From: Geomonas ferrireducens
Lineage (GTDB): Bacteria > Desulfobacterota > Desulfuromonadia > Geobacterales > Geobacteraceae
Assembly (NCBI RefSeq): GCF_004917065.1
Contig: NZ_SSYA01000003.1
Span: forward strand, 124,001-188,000
Reading direction: 5' to 3'
Length of the DNA stretch: 64,000 nucleotides
Positions 48,431 through 63,101 of this stretch are shown here, piece after piece. The notes under the pieces are model-generated. The model ran no database searches and had not been told where the DNA came from. It saw nothing but the letters and a program-made list of their open reading frames with translations. The first letter of the stretch is position 1, and the number at the start of each line of letters is the position of its first letter. The position numbers were made by a program, and so were the translations under genes.

Positions 48431-51400
48431 TTAGGGGACTTCTACAATGACAGACTGCGAGGAGACCAGGGTCGACCCGTTGAACAGCTGGATCGTGGTC
48501 TTGAAGGTGTACTTGCCGGTACCGGACTTGAAGTACTTCTCGTAGCGGTTGTACACGTGAGCCACGCCGCCTGCACCGTTGGCCGTTGCGAAGTCGGCAG
48601 CGGTAAGGGTGGTGGAGGAGCTGCCGTCACCCCAGAAGAACCTGACCTTGTCGTAGGTGGTGCCTGCGACGACGGTTACCGGCACCTTGGTTTCCTGCAC
48701 GGTGTAGGTGTATGCCGGCCTGGTGGCGGTCGCCGCGATGGTCTTGACGACGGGGGCGGTGGCCGTGCCGGTTACGGAGATCAGTACCGGGTTTGTGACG
48801 TTGACGAGCTTGTAGCTGGTTGCGGTAGCGCCGTCGACGTTGGTCACGGTAAGGGCGACCCTGTAGGTGCCGGCCTTGTTGAAGCTGATGCTGGTGCTTG
48901 CTGCGGTTGCGTCGGTGATGCTCGCTGCGGTGCCGGCGTTGGTAGCCCACTGGAACCTGGCGCCTGCAGCCGGTGTGCCGGTGGCTGCGATGGCGTAGGA
49001 GAGGTCCTTGACCAGCGGAGCCGCGGTGGTGCCCGACTCGCCGTTCACTGCTGCGATGCCGGCTACCGGGGTGGCGCCGACGCCGAAGGCCGACGCGGTG
49101 ATGCTGTTCAGGTAGGTTACGTACTGGGCGCGGGTTGCATAGCTGTTGGCGCCACGAACGATCGGGGCGGTTTTCCAGAGAGCGCCCTTCAGGCCGAACG
49201 GACCCACGTCGGAGAGCTTGTTGATGCGGATCTGGTAGCCGGCAGCGGCGTCCAGCTTCACGCCGCCGTTGGCGGCGGTGACGGTGAAGAAGGTGCTGCC
49301 GAATTTACCGGCGTTGTCAAGCAGGGTTACCAGCTGGTCAACGGTGGTCACCTTGTCGTCGGTGATCTGGACGGTGCGGCTGGTGATCACGCCGTTGCTG
49401 TCCTTCACGTCCACCTTGAGGGTCCAGCCGAGGGTGGAGGTGGCGCCCTTCTTGGCGGCGTTGAAGATGTACGCCGGATCTTCACAGTAGAACGGGCTTG
49501 CGGCGCTGCAGGCTGCCGCGATGGCACCGCCCTGGATGCTGGTTACCCAGTCCTGGTTGATGGTCTGGAAGGTGTTCTCGTAGAGAACCTCGCTGCGGTC
49601 GATGTTACGCAGGGTCTGCCCCGGGGTCGCGGTCTGAACGTAGGGACCGTCGAACTTGGTGAGGATCGGGATCGGCAGAGAGCGGGTGCCGTCTTTGGTC
49701 ACGACGTTCGGGTGCGAATCGGTGATGTCGACGAGGCCGTTCACCTTGGTGAAGGTGGTCACCTGGTTGGAGTCGAAGCTGAACTTGCCGTCCATGTTGC
49801 CGTTGATCGGGTAGGCGCCGTTGTAGAAGCCTGCGTTGGCGGCATGGCACTCCTGGCAGCCGTTCTTGCCCCACGCCCTGTCGGCGGAAGCGATGTTGTG
49901 GCTCGCCTTGAAAGGAACCATGAGGAAGGAGACCTTCGGCAGGAACGCGTTGGTCGCCTGGGTGGTGGTGTTGCCGAGCTGCCCCCTGATGCCTGCCGAG
50001 AGGGCGGCTTGCTGGGTGGCGATTTCGGCGGCGTTCACCACGCCGTCAGCGGTGAGGGCGTGCAGGCCGTTTATGCGGTTGATGTTGGCCACATGGGTCT
50101 GCAGCAGCGGATCCATGCCGGCCTCGCGGCCGTCGTTGTTGGCGTCGAAACCGCCGTTGATGGTCTTAAGGCCGTTCATGTCGCGCCAGAAGAAGGAGGT
50201 CAAGAGGTTGGCGGCGTAGATCTTGCCGTTCTGCCAGTGCAGCGCGACGCCGTTGTTCATGTTGCCTTTGGCGACGTACTCGGTGTCGTGGACTGCCAGA
50301 CGCCCTTCCTCGTCGGCGCCGGTGCCGTCGACGAACGCGCCGCCGCTGAAGCCGTCCTTACGGATGTGGCAGGCGGTGCAATCGATGAGGTCGATGTGGC
50401 TTACCTGTGCGCCCGCCTTATCGTAGGCGATCTTCGCGGTCAGGCCGGCCCTGTCGTGAGCGCCCTTGGAGTTCGGTGCGCCGAAGGTGGCGAAGGCCGG
50501 AGCGGTGGCGTACTCGTGGCAGCCGGAGCAGTCCTTGAACTCCACCTTGTCCATCTTGTTCCACATGGCGTCAAACGGAGAAGCGCCGCCCTTGGCGGGG
50601 TCGCACAGGCCGAGCTTGTTGTCGCCTATGTTGCCGCTCACGCCGACTTGGGCGGTGGTCCCTGCGGTAGCGCCGGTGCGCTCATGGCAGCCCATGCAGC
50701 CGATGGCGCCGTGGACGTCGAGGATGGTGCCGTTCTGGCTCCACATCTCGCCGCGCTTCTTCCAGTCGACCTGGTATTTCTCGCCGCCGGTCACGGTCAC
50801 TACGCCGGTGATTGCATCCTTGGTCTCGATGGTGTTGCCGAGGTGACAGGAGGAGCACTGGTTGGAGGTCGGCTTGCCGACGATCTTGTACTCGAGGTTG
50901 GCGACCAGGCCGGCCGGGGTGGCGGTTACCGAGGTCGAGTTGTAGAAGACGTTCACGCCGTCCTTCGCGGAGAAGGCCAGCTTGGAGCCGACGGCGCGGG
51001 AAGCGTCGAACTCACCCTTGCGGACCGCGTCCTTGCGCTTTTCCCAGCTGTAGTCGTTCTGGTGGCAGATGAGGCAGTCCATCTCGAGAACGCCGGTCTG
51101 GGAGTAATCCTGCACCACCACGTTGCCGCGGTTGGCCGGGGTGTCGTTGAAGATGTCGATCAGGGCGTTGAAGGCGGTGACTGCGCCGCCGAAGACGTAG
51201 TCGCGGAGCGACTTGCGCTTGTTGGCGTCGTAGGTCCCGGAGGTGGCTGCGCTGTCGTCGACCATGTATTCCATGGCGCCGCCGCCGACGTGGCACTCGC
51301 CGCAGTCGCGCATCTCGCCGGCCACGGAGTTGTCCGCCTTCTGGGCGAAGGTGGTCGCGTCGGTGAAGTTGTACGGCTCGTAGTACTTGGTCGCGCCGCC

Positions 51401-51952
51401 AACGAGGTTGGCCACCCTGGAGGTGCCGGAAGCAACCTCACCGAAGAGAACGGTTTCAAACTGGGCCGTGGTCGCGTTGTAAACCGCACCTGCACCGTCT
51501 TTGTACATTCTCGCCAACTGGCGAGCAGACGGCGGTCACCAAGACCCCACATGCCCGGGGCTCTGCACCCAGTTTTTACCCTGGGGGCCTGCGCCGGTGC
51601 GGAAAGCGTCGGACGAGTCGATGTTGAACGGGTTGAAGCCGCGGATCTCGTTCGCGCCAAGCTGTGCGTGGTAGGAGTGCTTTTCGATGTCGTCGTAGGT
51701 GTACTTGAGGACGCTCGAGGTGCCGGCGGCAGCGTCACCGTGGCAACCGGCGGTGCCGAAGCAGGTCGTCTTGATGCTGTAGGCTTTTGCGGAGCCGTCG
51801 GCGTTCTTGGTGATCGCCTGGCCTGCCGGATCCTTGAGCGGGATCTGTTTGTGGGCAGAGACGGAAGCCATCGCCATCCCCGTGCCGACCCCGATAAGGG
51901 CGGCGCAGGAAGCGGCGGTAAGCAGCACCGTCTTCTTGGTGGGTTGTTTCAT
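48431..51952 (-). CDS. Multiheme c-type cytochrome A with in-frame TGA (predicted selenocysteine), 1173 aa
   Basis: Read through TGA codon 139 (51536-51538), the frame encodes 1173 residues. Codons 1-138 give a signal peptide (MKQPTKKTVLLTAASCAALI), an atypical heme motif CFGTAGCH (CX5CH), SYHAQLG, and QSPGHVGSW just before the TGA. The same frame resumes PPSARQLARMYKDG. After it come seven CXXCH motifs (CGECH, CLICH, CSSCH, CMGCH, CSGCH, CTACH, CQECH). The last ~260 residues are PKD/Ig-like domains ending SSQSVIVEVP. The downstream part alone has no signal peptide or convincing ribosome site. The ATG at 51952 follows AAAGGAG at good spacing; an ATG at 51955 is also possible. Likely a periplasmic or outer-surface electron carrier. 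Confidence 0.85.
51495..51538 (-). promoter_or_regulatory. Candidate bacterial SECIS element of cytochrome A
   Basis: Sixteen bases after the TGA begins loop AGTT, closed by a 6-bp stem CTCGCC (51525-51520) / GGCGAG (51515-51510). A lower stem CCGTCT (51532-51527) / AGACGG (51500-51495) encloses it. Distance, a G in the first two loop bases and small loop fit the general bacterial SECIS model. Confidence 0.7.
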
Positions 51953-52265
51953 CATGGGTCTCCTTTGTCTCGATTCAATGGAAGTACGAATCACATCTTG
52001 CGTCCGGTATGGGGGTACCGTTCGCCATCTGCAGTCCTGCTTCAGCTTTAGAGAGCCTGGATTCATCATTAGCACGGGGTGTGCCGCTATTTTATTTTTC
52101 TCACTAAATTTTTAAAACAGTAGTAATTGCTAAAACTTCCGTGACGCGTTTCATTGGGACGACAGGGGGGGCGGAAGGGGATGGGGTGTTTGTTGGGGTA
52201 AATACCCCAAGTTCACCCAGTGACTGGGGGGCTTTTACCCCAATGTGGGGGTAGGGTGGTGTAAA
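51953..52265. other. Upstream region of cytochrome gene A
   Basis: No gene. It contains the palindrome at 52193-52210 and further GGGG/CCCC-rich dyads between 52160 and 52255. A short AT-rich stretch near 52085-52135 may hold the promoter, but I cannot place it. Confidence 0.45.
52193..52210. promoter_or_regulatory. Palindrome TGGGG-N6-CCCCA upstream of cytochrome A
   Basis: TTGGGGTAAATACCCCAA, about 240 bases upstream of the cytochrome A start. The same TGGGG-N6-CCCCA layout occurs at 60841-60856. Probable protein-binding site, regulator unknown. Confidence 0.45.
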
Positions 52266-52267
52266 CG

Positions 52268-52306
52268 GCAAAAGAGCAGGTGGGGGAGCCCCTCCTGCTC
52301 TTTTGG
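52268..52306. terminator. Terminator of the parvulin gene (bidirectional form)
   Basis: AAAAGAGCAGG / CCTGCTCTTTT with an inner GGGG/CCCC stem, 23 bases after the parvulin stop, T-runs on both strands. Confidence 0.85.
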
Positions 52307-52328
52307 TGTGTGTAAGTGTTTGCGATTC

Positions 52329-53357
52329 TTAGGCTTTTTCTATCTTTGCCTTTTCTCTGAGCTCCTTGAGCAGGGCGGGGATCTCCGCGCGTACCTTTTC
52401 GCGCTTCAGGTACTCCACGATTTTCGCCTTAACCTCGTCGAAGGGCTGTACGCTGGGCGGGAGGGCCTCGGTGAGTTTGATGATGTGGTAGCCGAACACG
52501 GTGGAAACGACCCCGCTGATCTCGCCGGGTTTCAGCCCGAAGGCCGCTTTTTCAAACGGGGGAACCATGTCCCCCTGGCCGAAGACCCCCAGGTCGCCAC
52601 CCTTCTCCTTGCTGGGGCAGGTGGACTCCTTCCTGGCGATCTCGGCGAAATCTTCGCCTTTCTTGATGCGCTCCAACAGGGCCTCGGCTTTCGCCTTGGC
52701 CTCGTCCTTTTCCTTCTGGGAGGCGCTCTGGCTGACGCCCACGAGGATGTGGCTTGCCCTCACCCTGGCCCCCTGCTCGAAGTACTTGGTACGGTTGTCG
52801 TCGTAGAACTTCTTCGCATCGCTTTCCGCCACCTGCACCTTGGAGCCGAAGCGGACTTCGATCATGTTGTTGATGGCGATGTCCTTGCGGGTGAATTCCT
52901 CAAGGTCCTTAGGGCTCATGAGCAGCTCGTCCATGGCGGCCTTGTATTCGGCGTCGCTCTTGAACTTCGCTCGGTTCTCGGCGAGGGCCTTCTTCACCTG
53001 CTGGTCCAGGTCCTTCATCTCGACCCCCTTAGACGCCTGGTACAAGAGCTCCGAATCGGTGAGTTGCTCGAGGATGGTGTCCTGCGCCTTCTTGAGCGCT
53101 TCGGGGACGAGTTGCTTGGTGCCGGTCTGCTTCAGCATGATTTTCAGGGCGCGGTTGACTTCCTTGCGGATGATCGGCGTGCCGTTCACCTTCACCAGCG
53201 TCTCGTCGGGTGACGGCTGCGCCGCCTGCGCTGCCTTGGCCGCCAGGGCCGCGGCGTCTTTGACTGTGGCCTCTTCCGCAAACGATGCACCTGCGCCCAT
53301 GGTCATGAGCATGATTGCGGCAACGGTGGACGATACGATCTTCTTCGGGTGCGGCAT
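52329..53357 (-). CDS. Periplasmic parvulin-type peptidyl-prolyl isomerase (SurA/PrsA-like)
   Basis: A 342-residue exported protein with signal peptide (to GASFA). An N-terminal SurA-like helical chaperone region (about 50-190: VKVNGTPIIRKEVNRALK, ILEQLTDSELLYQ) is followed by a rotamase domain (about 195-300: VRASHILVGVSQSASQKE, GGDLGVFGQGDMVPPFEKAAFGL, FGYHIIKLTE) with the conserved His residues. A Lys-rich C-terminal helix follows. It assists folding of exported proteins. Sitting between the two large cytochrome genes on the same strand, it is probably their dedicated foldase, though it has its own terminator. Confidence 0.9.
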   Translation of the reverse strand: MPHPKKIVSSTVAAIMLMTMGAGASFAEEATVKDAAALAAKAAQAAQPSPDETLVKVNGTPIIRKEVNRALKIMLKQTGTKQLVPEALKKAQDTILEQLTDSELLYQASKGVEMKDLDQQVKKALAENRAKFKSDAEYKAAMDELLMSPKDLEEFTRKDIAINNMIEVRFGSKVQVAESDAKKFYDDNRTKYFEQGARVRASHILVGVSQSASQKEKDEAKAKAEALLERIKKGEDFAEIARKESTCPSKEKGGDLGVFGQGDMVPPFEKAAFGLKPGEISGVVSTVFGYHIIKLTEALPPSVQPFDEVKAKIVEYLKREKVRAEIPALLKELREKAKIEKA

Positions 53358-53433
53358 GGTTGATTCTCCTTGTCTTTGAGCTGCTCCAGGCGCGTCTTGC
53401 TCCCGACGTCGGCCCGAAAATCCTGTCCCTCTA

Positions 53434-53466
53434 CCAAAAAGGGCCCGGAACTTTCGTTCCGGGCCA
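53434..53466 (-). terminator. Intrinsic terminator of cytochrome gene B
   Basis: On the minus strand GGCCCGGAAC pairs with GTTCCGGGCC around GAAA, then CTTTTTGG. It is almost identical to the terminator of cytochrome gene A. Confidence 0.93.
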
Positions 53467-53509
53467 TGGATTTACATCACTGCATGTTCATCGAAGTTCC
53501 ATTGTTGCA

Positions 53510-56500
53510 TTACTGTACTTCTACCTTCACAGACTGCGAGCTGACCAGGGTCGACCCGTTGAACAGCTGGATCGTGGTCTTGTAGGTGTACTTGTTGGTA
53601 GTAGCGTTCAGGTACTTGCTGTACCGGTTGTACACGTGCGCCACGCCGCCTGCACCGTTGGCCGTTGCGAAGTCTGCAGCGGTGAGGGTGGTGGAGGAGC
53701 TGCCGTCACCCCAGAAGAACCTGACCTTGTCGTAGGTCGGGGGGGTAAGCGTGAAGGTTACCGGCACCTGGGTCTGCTGTACGGTGTAGCTGTAAGCCGG
53801 CCTGGTGGCGGTGGCAGGGATGGTAGTGGTGACCGGTGCGGTGGTGGTGCCGGTTACTGCGATGTACACCGGGTTGGCTACGTTGACGAGCTTGTAGCTG
53901 GTTGCGGTAGTGCCGTCGACGTTGGTCACGGTAAGGGCGACCCTGAAGGTGCCGGCCTTGGTGAAGGTGATGCCGGTGTTTGCTGCGGCCGGTGCGGAGA
54001 TGATCGCGCCCGGTACTGCAGGAGGAACTGCGGTGTCACCAGCGTTGGTTGCCCACTGGAATTTGGCGCCGGCTGCCGGGGTGGTGGCGGGGGCGAAGTT
54101 GTAGGAGGTCCCCTTGATCAGCATAGCTGCGTTGGTGCCGGTCTCGCCGTTCACTGCCGCGATGGTTGCGACCGGTTTCACGCCGAGGCCTGCTGCGGTT
54201 GCGTCGAAGTTTTGGGCGATGGACTCCATGTAATCGGCGTAAGCAATGCCGTTCACAGGGGTTGCGCCAGTCTTGATGCTGCCGTCGTCGTTGGTGTCTG
54301 CGATCTTGTAGTAGATGGCGCCGTCTTCGGGCGGATACAGGATGTCTGCACGCTCAAGATCGGTGGTCCAGGTGTAGTTAGCATCGCTCTTCTGGAACTT
54401 CACGGTGCGCGGCTGGCCGAGCTTGTTGAAGCCTTCGAATGCGGTGCGGAGGTCGCCGAGTTTCGCCTTGACGCGTACCGGCTCGAGCGGACGACCCATC
54501 AGGTTGCTGGCGGAGTCGAGGCTCGGGATGCCAGGGATGCGGGTGACGGTGCCGCTCGTCTGGTCGATGGAGACCTGCGAGGTCGGGTTGAAGGTGTGGT
54601 CGGCCGGGATAGCGGTGCCGACCATGTCGAAGCCGCCTTTGAAGAAGCCTGCGCCCGGTGCATGGCAGTCTGCGCAGCTCTTGCCTTTAACGTACTGCTG
54701 TACCGGCTTCACGCCGTGGGTGACCATGAACGGAGCGCCGATGTAGGCGAGTTCGGTCTTGGTCCAGTCCTTGCGCAGTGCTGCCGGTTTCATGCTCTCA
54801 AGCTGGTTGCGGTAGTTCTTGTAGTCGGTGATCTGGTAAGGCTCGGTGAAGTTCACCGCGCCGCTCCAAACGCTGACGTACTTCCAGTAGTTGGCCGGAG
54901 AGAAGGTGCCGTCCGGCATGAATGCGGAGCCGGAAGCGGTGCTCATCGGGTCGTTGAAGCCGATCGAGATGACGGAGAGGGCGGAAGGACCGAAGTTCAT
55001 GCCGGCCTTCAGGTCGCGCTGGATCCACGGGTCGTAGATCGGCTCGCCGTAGCCCTGGGTGTTGTTCTCGTGCGGCGGCAGGCCGTCGAAGACGTCGGTG
55101 TAGCCGACCAGCGAGGGCTTGGTCGGGACCAGGTCGCCGCCGGGGACGGTGTCGCCGTTTGCATCGACGTTGGAGTCGGTGTTGTTCCAGATGACTGCGG
55201 AGATCGCGTTGCTCAGGTAGATCTTGCGGCGGAACTTCATGCCGCTCTTGTCGCTGTTGCCGAAGCTGAGCGGCGCTTCCATGTTGCCGAGTCTCTGCCA
55301 GAGGTTGAGCGGTTTCCACTCTTTGAGCGCGCCGCCCACCACGTGGGTGCCGGCCGGAATGGGCGCCTGGTAGCCAGGCATACCTTCGGTAAGGCCCATG
55401 GCCTGGTTGATTGCTGCGAACATCTGGTTGTACTGAGCGACTGCGCCTGCGTTGAACGCATCGGGAGCCGGATCCTCGAACAGGCCGATCATCCCCTTGG
55501 AGGGATCGGTGCCGACGATTGCCGGGAAGCGCATACCGGAGGTGGCGTCGAGGGCGCGTACCGCCATGCTCTTCTTCTGTACGTGGCAGACGGTGCAGTC
55601 CATGACGTCGAGGTGGTTGCCGCGGCCGAGCTTGTTCTTGTCGGAGGTGAAGTTGGTGTGCTCGGGTACGCCCTGGCCGCCGAAGCCGGCCTGCTCGGTG
55701 TCGAACTTGTCGACGATCTGGACGATGTTGTTGTTCAGGCCGTACTGGGTGTGTGCCGCATCCGGGTTCGGCGCGCCGAAGGTCTGGATGGGGTTGCCGT
55801 AGTAGTCCTTGCCGGTGATGTGGCAGAACTCGCAGCGCTTGACGGTGTTGCGGGTGTCGTGCTTCTGAACGGCTGCGGCAATCTCGCCACCTACGGCGAG
55901 GACCGGCTTACCTTCTGCGTCGTATTCCTTCACGACCTGACGCTTCCAAAGCGGCGGAACGCCGTCCTGGGTGGTGCTGGACATGTCGAAGCCGCGGCCC
56001 GGGTCGCACTGGTTCTTGTTGGTGCTGTTGCCGGTGAAGTGGCAGCCGGCGCAACCGAAGGAACCGTGGACGTCCTGGCCTGCCTGCCATGCGTCGCCAC
56101 GCTTGAACCACTCTGCGCGCGGGAACGGCATGGTGGAACGCTTGAGCGCGTTCTGGTCAGGCATGGAGCCGTCGGAGTTGTAGTAGTAGAGCGGGCCGGA
56201 CTGGGCCGGGTTGCCGCCGCCCATGAAGCCGGTAGCGCTCGCAGGGCTGTAGAAGGTCTGCTGCGCCTGCACGTACGGCATGCCGGGCATCATGTACTGA
56301 GTGTAGTTGTCCATGGTGATGACCGGGGAGGACCCGGTGGACATCCACATGGCGTTGATGTCGAAGGAGGTCATCCTCTTGCCGTTGGGGCCGACGCCGT
56401 TGTTCGGGTCGAAGATCATCGGCGCGGAGGAGAGGAAGCCGCTGCTGGTGCCGGTGACGCCGAACATCTCGGGGAGATTCTTCAGGGTCTTGGTGGCGTG

Positions 56501-57760
56501 GCACTGCATGCAGTTGTTGGAGTCCGGCGCGCCCTTGATGCGGCCGAGCAGGCTGGTGGAGAGCGACACGGTCTGCATCCCGTTGCCGGCATCGGCGAAG
56601 GTCACGTTGCCGTTGTACTGGCTGTAGCCCATGTAGGTCGGGCTGGCCGGGTTCATGTCGAAGAGCATGGCGCCGGCGGCCGGCGCGGCGTTCAGGCTTC
56701 CTGCCTGGGTCATCACGGAGGACATGACGTTGTCGTAGCCGGAGAGGTGGCAGAAGAAGCAGTCCATCTCCTTAACGTTAGGCACCATGAGCTGCTTGGC
56801 GTAGACCGGCATCGCTTTGGTCGCGTCGCCGGGGAAGTTCGGGTTCGGCATGCTCATCGGCTGGCCCCAACCGCTGGGGGCGATGATCGCGCCGTTGTTC
56901 GGCTTGCTCGGGTCAGGCCTGTTGCCTGCGTAGGCCGGGTAGACCCACGGAGCGATGGTTGCGAAGGAGGATTCGATCCCCTGCGCGCTGAAGTTCTCCC
57001 ACACGGTGCTGGTGAAGGGGTTCACGTCGCCCATCGCCATGTCGGTGAGGGTCTTGTAGGGGAGCCTGTTGCCGTTTCTGTCCTCTTCGTAGGCGATGCC
57101 GCCCGGATGGCAGGTGCCGCACATGGTCGCCTGGTCCCACAGGGAGAGGTCGACTTTCGGGTACGGTTTGCCATCGGCGCCAGTGCCGCCGTTAAGGAAG
57201 AGGTAGAGGCTGGTGCCGGGGGTCTGAGAATCTCTTACCGCGTCGCCGGTGCTAGGAACGGTGCCCGGGTATGCGATGCCTTTGCCGTCTGCTTTTTTCT
57301 GTAAGTCCGCCACCTGGCGGAGCGAGGGGGTTCACCACTTGCCGTTGTGGCCGTGGGACTGCAGCCAGGGTTTCTGCGGGTTGAGGCCCGTCTGCTTGCC
57401 GTTCTCCATGAACAGGCCGCTGTCGGAGTTGTCCATCCACTCGGCGGTGCCGAGGGTGGCGTGGTATGCGCCCTTGGACATGTCGGTGTAGCTCTTGAGC
57501 CCGGCGGTGTTGCCCGGGGTGTGGCAGCCCATGGAGCCGCCGCCCATGCAAGTCTGTTTCGGGCTGTAGGGCATGCCCTGTTTGGAGGTCGGGTCCACCA
57601 TGACCGGCATGGCGGGTGCGCCGTACTGCTGCGCTACCTCCTCATAGGTATAAAGCTGGATTGCCGGGTGTGCCGCTTGGGCAATCGTCCCGCCTACGGT
57701 GAGGCCGGCTACCGCCGAGGCCCCCGCCAAAAGCGAGATTTTCAATCCCCTTTTTTTCAT
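53510..57760 (-). CDS. Multiheme c-type cytochrome B with in-frame TGA (predicted selenocysteine), 1416 aa
   Basis: Read through TGA codon 143 (57332-57334), the frame encodes 1416 residues. Before the TGA are a signal peptide (MKKRGLKISLLAGASAVAGL), an atypical heme motif CMGGGSMGCH (CX7CH), AYHATLG and LQSHGHNGKW. After it the same frame continues TPSLRQVADLQKKADG. Seven CXXCH motifs follow (CGTCH, CFFCH, CMQCH, CAGCH, CEFCH, CTVCH, CADCH), then ~280 residues of PKD/Ig-like domains ending SSQSVKVEVQ. Order and flanking residues match cytochrome A, so they are paralogues. The ATG at 57760 has GAGAGGG upstream. The downstream frame alone would lack an export signal and so could not bind heme. 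Confidence 0.87.
57306..57334 (-). promoter_or_regulatory. Candidate bacterial SECIS element of cytochrome B
   Basis: Sixteen bases after the TGA begins loop AGGT, closed by TCCGCC (57321-57316) / GGCGGA (57311-57306), a perfect 6-bp stem. The AGGU loop recalls the loop of the E. coli formate dehydrogenase SECIS. Spacing is identical to cytochrome A. Confidence 0.72.
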
Positions 57761-60856: not shown

Positions 60857-60996
60857 GTTTTTGTCAGGCGTTGAGGTTATAGGTGGGGCAAATCGCTCGA
60901 TTGTGCCCCGGGAGCGGGGCTCACCCCCGTCTGCAGGCACCTCCGGCGCTCTGGCGCAGGTTTTGCTCCGCTGCATTCATTTACGGCGAGGTGATC

Positions 60997-62385
60997 ATGA
61001 GTACCAACCTTTTTACCAGCATCGTGCTTAACCTGACCGACGGGATCTACGTGATCCAGGAGGGGAAGGCTATCTTTTTGAACGACCGCTTCGGGGCGAT
61101 TTTCGGCTACCCGAGCGTCGAAGGGCTGATCGGCCGCGACATGTACGCCGACGTCTATCCCGACCGGCAGAGCGTCGACCTGTTCCGCCACGTGCACGAG
61201 CAGCTCTTGAAGGGGGATCGCTCCGCGGTCTCCTGGGGGCAGCCGTCGGCGCGGCTTGACGGCAGCGTCTTCTGGATCGAGGTGGAAGCGCGTCTCATCG
61301 AGGTGGAAGGTAAACCCGCCATCTTCGGAACCTTCCTGGACCGCACCGACTGCAAGCTGATCGGCGAGGCGATGCATGCGACCCAGGAGACCCTGCGGCT
61401 TCTTTTGGACGCCATGGAGGACCGCGTTTACGTCGTCACCGACGACTACCGCATCGTCTACGCGAACCGCAAGATGCGCGAGGGGCTTTTGGGGGATCTC
61501 GAGCAGGACTTCTGCTACCAGGTCTGCCGCGGCCAGCAGACCCGCTGTGAGGACTGCTGCGTCGACGACGGGTTCTTCGACTCCGAGCGCCCCCTGCACA
61601 AGGAGTTCTACAACGAGGTGACCAAGCTTTGGTACTCGGTCATCGAGCTTCCCGTCCGGATGCCCGGCATCGAGCAGCGCACGAAGCTCGCCGTCGCCCG
61701 CGACATCACCGTGCGACGGGAGGCCGAGAACAAGGTGCGCGCTCTCACCCGGAAACTTCTGAGCGTGCAGGAGGACGAGAGAAAGCACCTCTCCAGGGAG
61801 CTGCACGACGACCTCGGGCAGCGCTTGAACGCCGCGAAGATCATCGTCGACGTTCTCGCCGAGGACCTCGCTTCCTCCCCGGGTGATGCTCCCGCCCGGA
61901 TGCGTCATCTCTCCGAGGTGCTGAAGGACAGCGTGCAGTCGATCCGCACCATCTGCGCCGGCCTGCGCCCCTCGCCGCTTGAGAAACTTGGGCTTGTCGA
62001 CGCCATCCGCCACGACTGCGACAGTTTCTCGACCCACCACGGGGTGAACGTCCGCTTTTCCGCCCATGGACTGGAAGGGGTGCGCCTCCCCCATGAGGGT
62101 GAAATCACCCTGTACCGGGTATTCCAGGAGGCGCTGCATAACGTGGTGAAGCACGCGCGGGCAAGCGAGGTGGCCATAAGCCTCGTCGTTTCCCACCCGG
62201 TGCTCAGGATGCGCATCACCGACAACGGCAGGGGATTCGATCCCGCTCGCGCGGTCCCCGCCGGAAAAGCGGGGCTCGGGCTCGTCGGCATGGCCGAGCG
62301 GGTCGAGCTTTTAAACGGCTCCTTCGAGCTCACCTCCCGCCCCGGGAAGGGGACGCGTATCGCCGTGGAGATTCCCATCGCCTAG
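60997..62385 (+). CDS. Soluble PAS-PAS sensor kinase, HisKA_3 type
   Basis: A 462-residue cytoplasmic kinase without membrane segments. The GAGGTGATC site supports the ATG at 60997. The first PAS domain is at about 8-125 (NDRFGAIFGYPSVEGLIG). The second, at about 135-250, contains an unusual Cys cluster (FCYQVCRGQQTRCEDCC), which could hold a metal, an iron-sulfur centre or redox disulfides. The NarX-type DHp H-box is SRELHDDLGQRLNAAK, with ATPase motifs ALHNVVKHA, DNGRGFD and GLGLVGMAERV. It pairs with the NarL-type regulator 41 bases downstream. The Cys cluster suggests redox or metal sensing (inference). Confidence 0.9.
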   Translation: MSTNLFTSIVLNLTDGIYVIQEGKAIFLNDRFGAIFGYPSVEGLIGRDMYADVYPDRQSVDLFRHVHEQLLKGDRSAVSWGQPSARLDGSVFWIEVEARLIEVEGKPAIFGTFLDRTDCKLIGEAMHATQETLRLLLDAMEDRVYVVTDDYRIVYANRKMREGLLGDLEQDFCYQVCRGQQTRCEDCCVDDGFFDSERPLHKEFYNEVTKLWYSVIELPVRMPGIEQRTKLAVARDITVRREAENKVRALTRKLLSVQEDERKHLSRELHDDLGQRLNAAKIIVDVLAEDLASSPGDAPARMRHLSEVLKDSVQSIRTICAGLRPSPLEKLGLVDAIRHDCDSFSTHHGVNVRFSAHGLEGVRLPHEGEITLYRVFQEALHNVVKHARASEVAISLVVSHPVLRMRITDNGRGFDPARAVPAGKAGLGLVGMAERVELLNGSFELTSRPGKGTRIAVEIPIA

Positions 62386-62426: not shown

Positions 62427-63101
62427 ATGGAAGGAAAAAGCAGGGTCATCATCGTTGACGATCACCCCCTGTTTCGTGAAGGGGTGAAGGGGCTTGTGGA
62501 GCGAACCTCCGAGTACACCTGCATCGGTGAAGCGGGAAGCGGCGCCGAGGCGCTGGCGCTGGCCAGGGAGCTGAAACCCGAGCTCATGACCATGGACATC
62601 TCGCTTCCAGATGTAAGCGGCATCGAGGCGGTGCGCCAGATCATGCGCGAGGTCCCGTCGGTGAAGATCCTCATGCTGAGCATGCATCCCAAATTCGAGT
62701 ACGTGGCCGAGGCCCTGAGGGCCGGAGCGCGCGGCTACGTGATGAAAGAGGCGACCAGTACCCGACTAGTGGCCGCCATGGACGCCCTGCGGCGCGGCGA
62801 GTACTTCCTGGACGGGCAGGTCTCGCAGGACATCGTGGCGAACCTGGGGAATTCCGGTCAGGGGGAAGCCACGGTGTGCGACGAACGGTACGCGCTTTTG
62901 TCCCCCAGGGAGCAGCAGGTGATGCGACTGGTCGCCGAAGGCGGGGTGATACGACAGATAGCGTCGGATCTGGGGCTCAGCGTGAAGACGGTTGAGAACC
63001 ACCTCACAAACCTCATGAAGAAGCTCGATGTGCACAGCAGGATGGAACTCGTGCGCTATGCGGCGCGTCTTGGGGTTATCGATCTGGAGCAGTGGAAATA
63101 G
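62427..63101 (+). CDS. NarL/FixJ-type response regulator
   Basis: A 224-residue regulator with a GGAGG ribosome site. The receiver (about 6-125) has VDDHPLFREGVK, phospho-acceptor Asp in TMDISLPDVSG and Lys in VMKE. The LuxR-type helix-turn-helix (about 158-220) reads LSPREQQVMRLVAEGGVIRQIA, then LGLSVKTVENHLTNLMKK. It is the cognate partner of the PAS-PAS kinase upstream. Targets unknown. A GC-rich hairpin at 63116-63153 follows. Confidence 0.93.
   Translation: MEGKSRVIIVDDHPLFREGVKGLVERTSEYTCIGEAGSGAEALALARELKPELMTMDISLPDVSGIEAVRQIMREVPSVKILMLSMHPKFEYVAEALRAGARGYVMKEATSTRLVAAMDALRRGEYFLDGQVSQDIVANLGNSGQGEATVCDERYALLSPREQQVMRLVAEGGVIRQIASDLGLSVKTVENHLTNLMKKLDVHSRMELVRYAARLGVIDLEQWK

Follow-up and report, generated by a model that had tools for sequence, protein, structure and literature searches.

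Can an in-frame TGA encode an amino acid in a multiheme cytochrome and, if so, what would that residue do? The question is raised by two paralogous genes, A and B, in a 64,000-nt stretch of the Geomonas ferrireducens genome (assembly GCF_004917065.1, contig NZ_SSYA01000003.1, positions 124,001 to 188,000; hereafter the window, numbered from its first letter). Both genes carry a TGA early in a long reading frame, and both are predicted to be selenocysteine (Sec, U) proteins with a hairpin resembling a selenocysteine insertion sequence (SECIS) behind that codon:

48431..51955, minus strand: gene A, octaheme c-type cytochrome of 1174 aa predicted to contain Sec (U140); N-terminus signal-like, C-terminus PKD-like, heme motifs CX5CH and seven CXXCH
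51536..51538, minus strand: in-frame TGA of gene A (putative Sec codon)
51510..51525, minus strand: gene A, hairpin resembling a SECIS, from nt 11 to nt 26 behind the TGA; stem of six pairs, loop (nt 17-20) AGTT
53510..57760, minus strand: gene B, octaheme c-type cytochrome of 1416 aa predicted to contain Sec (U143); N-terminus signal-like, C-terminus PKD-like, heme motifs CX7CH and seven CXXCH
57332..57334, minus strand: in-frame TGA of gene B (putative Sec codon)
57306..57321, minus strand: gene B, hairpin resembling a SECIS, from nt 11 to nt 26 behind the TGA; stem of six pairs, loop (nt 17-20) AGGT

The sequence evidence leaves us nearly certain that UGA is decoded as Sec in both genes. 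When the TGA is read as a residue, the joined frames of A and B contain that one TGA each and no other stop. In both genes the codon sits within G-x-W-TGA-x-PS-x-RQ. An earlier note on this DNA had described a motif straddling the TGA, QSPGHVGSW-TGA-PPSARQLA in A and QSHGHNGKW-TGA-TPSLRQVA in B; both were recovered letter-perfect and the same site recurs across the order and the phylum. The upstream elements said to be shared, YSxKxTC...GCH and YHAxLG, were present in A and B, and the proposal that translation continues in frame across the TGA was borne out by the single-TGA frames, the fixed spacing and the continuous frames of relatives with Cys or Ser. The N-termini were judged signal-like by eye, and the upstream parts hold the first heme motif (CXnCH) and YHAxLG. 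A and B share 37% identity over the N-terminal 230 residues and 73% over the last ~230. The heme-1 motif of A lies within positions 51731-51766 and relatives have it in the same place, which is otherwise conserved while n varies (5 in A, 7 in B; 2, 4, 8 or more in relatives, and at most 14 by eye); this spacing count was crude, as 13 of the 87 site rows described below lacked an upstream C and 5 lacked a CH within 75 aa. Heme attachment at CX5CH and CX7CH was assumed.

Relatives were collected from two genome draws, one covering the order and one the phylum. Both A and B are also present in Geomonas oryzae S43 and Geomonas edaphica Red53 (loci L009 and L010). Relatives of B occurred in 28 of the 141 genomes of the order, and the matches covering the site region reported one TGA, while the family profile at 1e-8 matched 78 of the 395 genomes of the phylum draw, many of them only in later heme regions. 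Site rows were extracted from these loci with a pattern requiring an aromatic residue, U, C or S, and RQ with enough flank, and identical rows were merged; the resulting counts are thus no census, and the pattern would miss other residues at the U position. Rows, alignments and trees come from related genomes and carry no kinship correction. The 87 distinct rows, A and B included, comprised 73 with U, 7 with Cys and 7 with Ser. A quick tree with the site masked, to which a long-branch warning is attached, placed the A-type (27), B-type (28), Y-type (9) and F-type (8) rows each in one clade (SH-aLRT 100); a single U row, L139, fell outside these four, and all 7 Cys rows and 6 of the 7 Ser rows formed one clade of 13. 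Y-type sites read GQFGAW-U-PPSYRQ and similar, and F-type sites GKF-U-PPSFRQ.

Homologues with Cys at the U position, which the earlier note had proposed to look for, were found (L081, L082, L107, L108, L110, L112 and L114). Both the Cys and the Ser relatives keep the W-5-RQ spacing in one continuous frame. The residue before U was W in 78 of the 87 rows, F in 8 and Y in 1, with RQ constant at U+5; part of this constancy is by construction, since both elements belonged to the search pattern, and W and RQ are also invariant columns of a 25-row alignment (A1). The residue at U-5 varied with the group, being H in 27/27 A-type, H in 12 and M in 16 of the 28 B-type, M in 8/8 F-type and Q in 9/9 Y-type rows; rows with Cys or Ser at the site had M, K or V there. 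The motif described earlier therefore stands for the aromatic residue before U and for RQ at U+5, while its GH is not general, and the variable U-5 rules out the H of GH as a general heme ligand.

The simplest objection is that the TGA is a true stop and that each locus holds two genes of a conserved operon, an alternative that Fujita et al. named for another Geobacterales cytochrome, ExtKL. Standard gene finding does split A and B at this codon. Against a stop, conserved residues keep a fixed spacing across the TGA, the Cys and Ser relatives are single continuous frames, no signal sequence is visible by eye in the downstream part, the hairpin described next is restricted to TGA genes, and the stop was always TGA, never TAA or TAG, in the rows read. 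We regard this alternative as very improbable. Because ordinary gene finding cuts at the TGA, iron-reducing soil bacteria may have very large exported cytochromes that are annotated as two fragments.

The second line of evidence for Sec lies in the DNA behind the TGA. Nucleotides 11-16 pair with 21-26 around a four-base loop, AGGT, AGTT or, once, AGAT, and for gene A a longer outer stem was predicted in one of two folding windows. Loop and distance are like those of the SECIS of Escherichia coli fdhF. All four core pairs were formed in 68/68 TGA genes and in 0/14 Cys/Ser genes, where 0-3 pairs formed; the 68 differ from the 69 genes of the best-hairpin count in that the former also required two CXXCH within 300 aa and passed a context filter of their own. 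As the rows are related, these counts are not independent events. The Leu codon after RQ was TTG in 40/40 TGA genes, while Cys/Ser genes used CTN in 12/13 and TTG in 1/13; across A and B together, TTG accounts for 4 of 128 Leu codons. When A and B were resampled synonymously in 20,000 trials, the six-pair stem arose in 0.8% and 2.6%, respectively. Part of the DNA-level conservation of RQ(V/L)A is due to these codons forming the hairpin; that the peptide is conserved merely as a by-product of SECIS codons was ruled out, since RQ is retained in TGA and Cys/Ser genes alike and the latter keep it without the hairpin. The hairpin at the DNA level is a stronger argument for Sec than the row counts.

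The machinery for Sec is also present. The genome from which the window comes has a tRNA-Sec and SelB, both located away from the A/B locus. A tRNA-Sec over the cut-off was found in 54 of the 58 genomes with family members (56 taken as TGA carriers, plus G220 with Cys and G427 with Ser), and SelB in 34/35 genomes. Some observations weigh against Sec decoding: the best-scoring hairpin lay in another register in 4/69 TGA genes, longer folding windows were less clear-cut, with z-scores of only -2.65 to 0.35, and four genomes (G304, G471, G340 and G243) had a TGA member and no tRNA-Sec match.

Reading of the TGA as Trp, or leaky read-through by a near-cognate tRNA, must be set against the same data. 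The residue follows a Trp, frames alone cannot discriminate between amino acids, and one true octaheme tetrathionate reductase (OTR) of the Geomonas group, L154, outside the 30 OTR loci considered below, has Trp at the position where the others have Cys. On the other side, 14/14 non-TGA rows of the A/B relatives have Cys or Ser, the SECIS-like hairpin, tRNA-Sec and SelB are present, and genes elsewhere in the window terminate as expected under the standard code. We judge this reading the least probable of all. Thus, relatives, hairpin, tRNA-Sec and SelB bear out the proposal of Sec at the TGA, and the idea of a functional site around it is supported.

What kind of cytochromes are A and B? Neither reaches any NCBIfam cut-off. 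Some alignment members match the models for MmcA (TIGR04314) and OTR (TIGR04315) weakly, the best of them matching TIGR04315 at 6.4e-5, and compact relatives do so more clearly. Profile comparison of A1 (25 rows) with nine OTR-family proteins (alignment A2) gave 98.9% and E 1.5e-17, with an invariant K-R-G of A1, located after heme 4, aligned on the invariant Lys of OTR (K166 of A2). When the compact relatives, eight with Sec and one with Ser, were compared with OTR, the alignment covered every one of the eight hemes (99.4%, E 5.6e-22). In A, B and OTR alike, the Sec/Cys is preceded by a single heme site and followed by seven. With the site masked, the F-type and A-type groups matched OTR well, and the B-type and Cys/Ser groups poorly. 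A and B very probably belong, as distant relatives of OTR, to a wider superfamily. They resemble OTR in the eight heme sites, in the Lys after heme 4 and probably in the Sec/Cys that follows an aromatic residue between heme 1 and heme 2; they differ from it in size (1174 and 1416 aa, against open frames of ~450-600 aa), in the PKD-like C-termini, the variable CXnCH heme-1 motif and W-U-xPSxRQ, and in having no TIGR04315 match. MmcA, a heptaheme cytochrome of Methanosarcina, is itself a relative of OTR (PMC11024163); a term search of that paper found no mention of selenium in the text covered. Compact Sec and Ser relatives matched TIGR04314 weakly (6.7e-11 and 1.7e-16), all matches lying far below the 250-bit cut-off. 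The MtrC/OmcA outer-membrane cytochromes (PF22113) were rejected as a home for A and B, which scored 27 and 21.1 bits against a gathering cut-off of 30. Searches against solved structures gave no match with the queries P0001 and P0002, three chance-level matches only with A1, and, with the Ser relative L141, weak matches to chains of NrfA, octaheme nitrite reductase and OTR (1sp3).

The OTR family also offers a counterpart for the Sec. An invariant non-heme Cys stands between hemes 1 and 2 in 9/9 OTR-family proteins of A2. In the Shewanella enzyme this residue is Cys64, which lies close to heme 2 with its Lys153 ligand. Alignment of the compact relatives, with U written as C, paired U with this Cys. 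Moreover, of the 79 true OTR matches that the phylum draw yielded above the curated cut-off, 30 have a single TGA. Among the 30 OTR loci read at the site (L174-L203), 13 had TGA and 17 Cys, and the TGA stood at the invariant Cys in 13/13 (for example L176, L180, L190 and L199); these 13 are the ones read among the 30 TGA-containing matches. Several TGA OTRs have a stem with the loop AGGT ~25-28 nt after the TGA, further away than in A and B. As many true OTRs carry TGA exactly at the invariant Cys, the Sec of A and B is probably that same residue, and we hold it likely that it occupies the OTR Cys site, with the register inferred.

Several results speak against this placement. A and B found no match in TIGR04315 (cut-off 375 bits) up to E 10, and B-type sequences alone, masked, hardly aligned with OTR (52%). 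The native Cys relatives aligned with OTR over the hemes and were out of register at the Cys. When the Sec column was masked, the pairing with the OTR Cys was lost, so that the register rests on topology, the preceding aromatic residue and the Cys/Sec exchange. Furthermore, Sec and heme 2 are separated in A and B by a much longer linker than in OTR, and an AlphaFold model of the cytochrome part of A, built from eight sequences, had a mean predicted local distance difference test (pLDDT) score of 27.3 and was not used.

The explanation that we favour by a modest degree of belief is that A and B are exported Sec octaheme cytochromes of the wider OTR superfamily, in which the Sec would act catalytically near a Lys-ligated heme 2. 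UGA would be decoded with the help of the SECIS hairpin centred 17-20 nt downstream, placing Sec in the linker between heme 1 and heme 2 where OTR has its invariant non-heme Cys. The OTR Lys is retained as the K-R-G after heme 4, and heme 2 would be the Lys-ligated catalytic heme. The selenolate may then lie at the distal side of heme 2 as a nucleophile or redox partner and attack an oxyanion or a substrate with a chalcogen-chalcogen bond (such as tetrathionate, polysulfide or selenite), after which electrons passing along the other seven hemes would reduce the Se-substrate adduct. OTR reduces nitrite, hydroxylamine and tetrathionate (PMC4484225), and this range makes a sulfur or selenium oxyanion or polysulfide plausible for A and B; a catalytic role on such a sulfur- or selenium-type substrate is possible, and we would sooner doubt than assert it. 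The PKD-like C-termini and the neighbouring cytochromes suggest that A and B are cell-surface or periplasmic terminal reductases. If the proposal is right, a selenolate beside a multiheme wire would be an unusual coupling of extracellular electron transfer to two-electron chemistry, and selenium supply would be tied to metal or sulfur respiration. The Sec, Cys and Ser forms at one site constitute a natural test of the contribution of selenium to a heme enzyme.

Alternatively, Sec could be real and serve as a heme ligand, a structural residue or the ligand of a further metal, with the proteins acting mainly as electron conduits. In the MccA sulfite reductase, copper is bound by a Cys. The residue at U-5 is often one that could bind a heme (H, M or K), Ser, which a catalytic nucleophile would tolerate poorly, replaces Sec in 7/87 rows, and other multiheme cytochromes stand among the neighbours. 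Yet U-5 can also be Q (9/87) or V (1/87), and such variation means that it is not an obligate ligand; the exchange of Cys and Sec at one site, seen within true OTRs too, is typical of catalytic Sec, and the invariant Lys of OTR is retained. We consider the non-catalytic alternative unlikely, and prefer the catalytic Sec.

Contrary to the impression given in the earlier note that no selenoprotein family of multiheme cytochromes was established, such proteins are already listed. Fujita et al. in 2007 proposed a Sec pentaheme cytochrome, GSU2937+GSU2936 (PMC1914089), later called ExtKL (PMC5877670, PMC6148476). A 2022 review lists a cytochrome c family protein as a Sec family (PMC9312934), and the table of Sec families in a 2026 review includes ExtKL, a GSU2204-family protein and a 'tetrathionate reductase family octaheme c-type cytochrome', the Sec form of OTR there being GenBank-annotated (PMC13188914). 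The portions consulted of these papers and reviews held no description of A-, B-, Y- or F-type proteins, and a search of open-access PMC for 'selenocytochrome' and similar phrases found nothing. ExtKL (NF040886) is, like A and B, a Geobacterales multiheme cytochrome with an in-frame TGA; it differs in having five hemes, all before a Sec that lies in the C-terminal domain (GHSIPDG-U-PTPNR). Membership of A and B in that family was rejected, as NF040886 gave A 10.5 bits against a cut-off of 250 and did not list B, and their hemes lie mostly after the Sec. The genome that carries A and B has ExtKL too, as a gene in its own right (L172, G000:C1:1213046-1214323). Selenium-containing cytochromes are thus already on record, and the A and B families appear to be new branches.

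As a separate observation, the ExtKL gene L172 shows by eye a possible hairpin with the stem ACCGAC/GTCGGT that starts ~11 nt behind its TGA; Fujita et al. reported that they had found no SECIS in the ExtKL family (PMC1914089).

A broader picture, which in our estimate falls just short of an even chance, would be a Sec octaheme reductase superfamily widespread in the phylum, comprising the Sec OTRs and no fewer than four diverged branches, giant or membrane-linked (A, B, Y and F), that no model covers; Sec would serve as the catalytic chalcogen next to a heme with a Lys ligand. Some lineages would carry their own selB and tRNA-Sec copies with it, as a transferable island for selenium-dependent respiration. 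A selB gene lies near the locus in 10 of the 28 carrier genomes of the order, several of which are close relatives: it is within 7 kb of B in eight (G118, G053, G023, G043, G079, G089, G086 and G095), and G009 and G117 have it no further than 18 kb away. G053, G023, G043 and G117 have another selB elsewhere, and the only selB match of G118 is the one in the locus. In G118, G053, G043 and G023 the distance from B to a tRNA-Sec gene is 2-3 kb, and the locus of G118 has two copies of that gene. The loci include:

L058/L169 (G118:C43), L064 (G053:C38) and L066/L162 (G023:C72): selB, often with an extra tRNA-Sec, a few kb from the B-type gene
L070 (G043:C19), L164 (G089:C28) and L165 (G086:C35): further loci of the same kind

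A membrane link was seen in one F-type protein (L137:4275-6953), in which the Sec octaheme domain is fused to a C-terminal cytochrome b like formate dehydrogenase gamma (TIGR01583, 136 bits, over the cut-off); this part could pass electrons from quinol to the octaheme domain.

Around A and B the window contains the following genes:

52329..53357, minus strand: peptidyl-prolyl isomerase of the PpiC/SurA type between A and B (PF13616, PF00639, PF13624)
60883..62385, plus strand: PAS-HisKA_3 sensor kinase
62427..63101, plus strand: response regulator, partner of that kinase, named by eye from its N-terminus

The isomerase is likely a folding helper. Beyond B, the PAS kinase and the response regulator are followed by a gene running off the window and then by a protein with four CXXCH. 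Neighbours in other genomes included 10- or 11-heme cytochromes, a kinase/regulator pair, an NHL-repeat protein and a Ser paralogue. This third paralogue, of ~1050 aa, carries Ser in place of Sec, with Lys at U-5 (GPGKFGKW-S-P..NRQ), and often stands beside A and B:

L053:4500, L056:7333 and L076:6008: examples of the Ser paralogue

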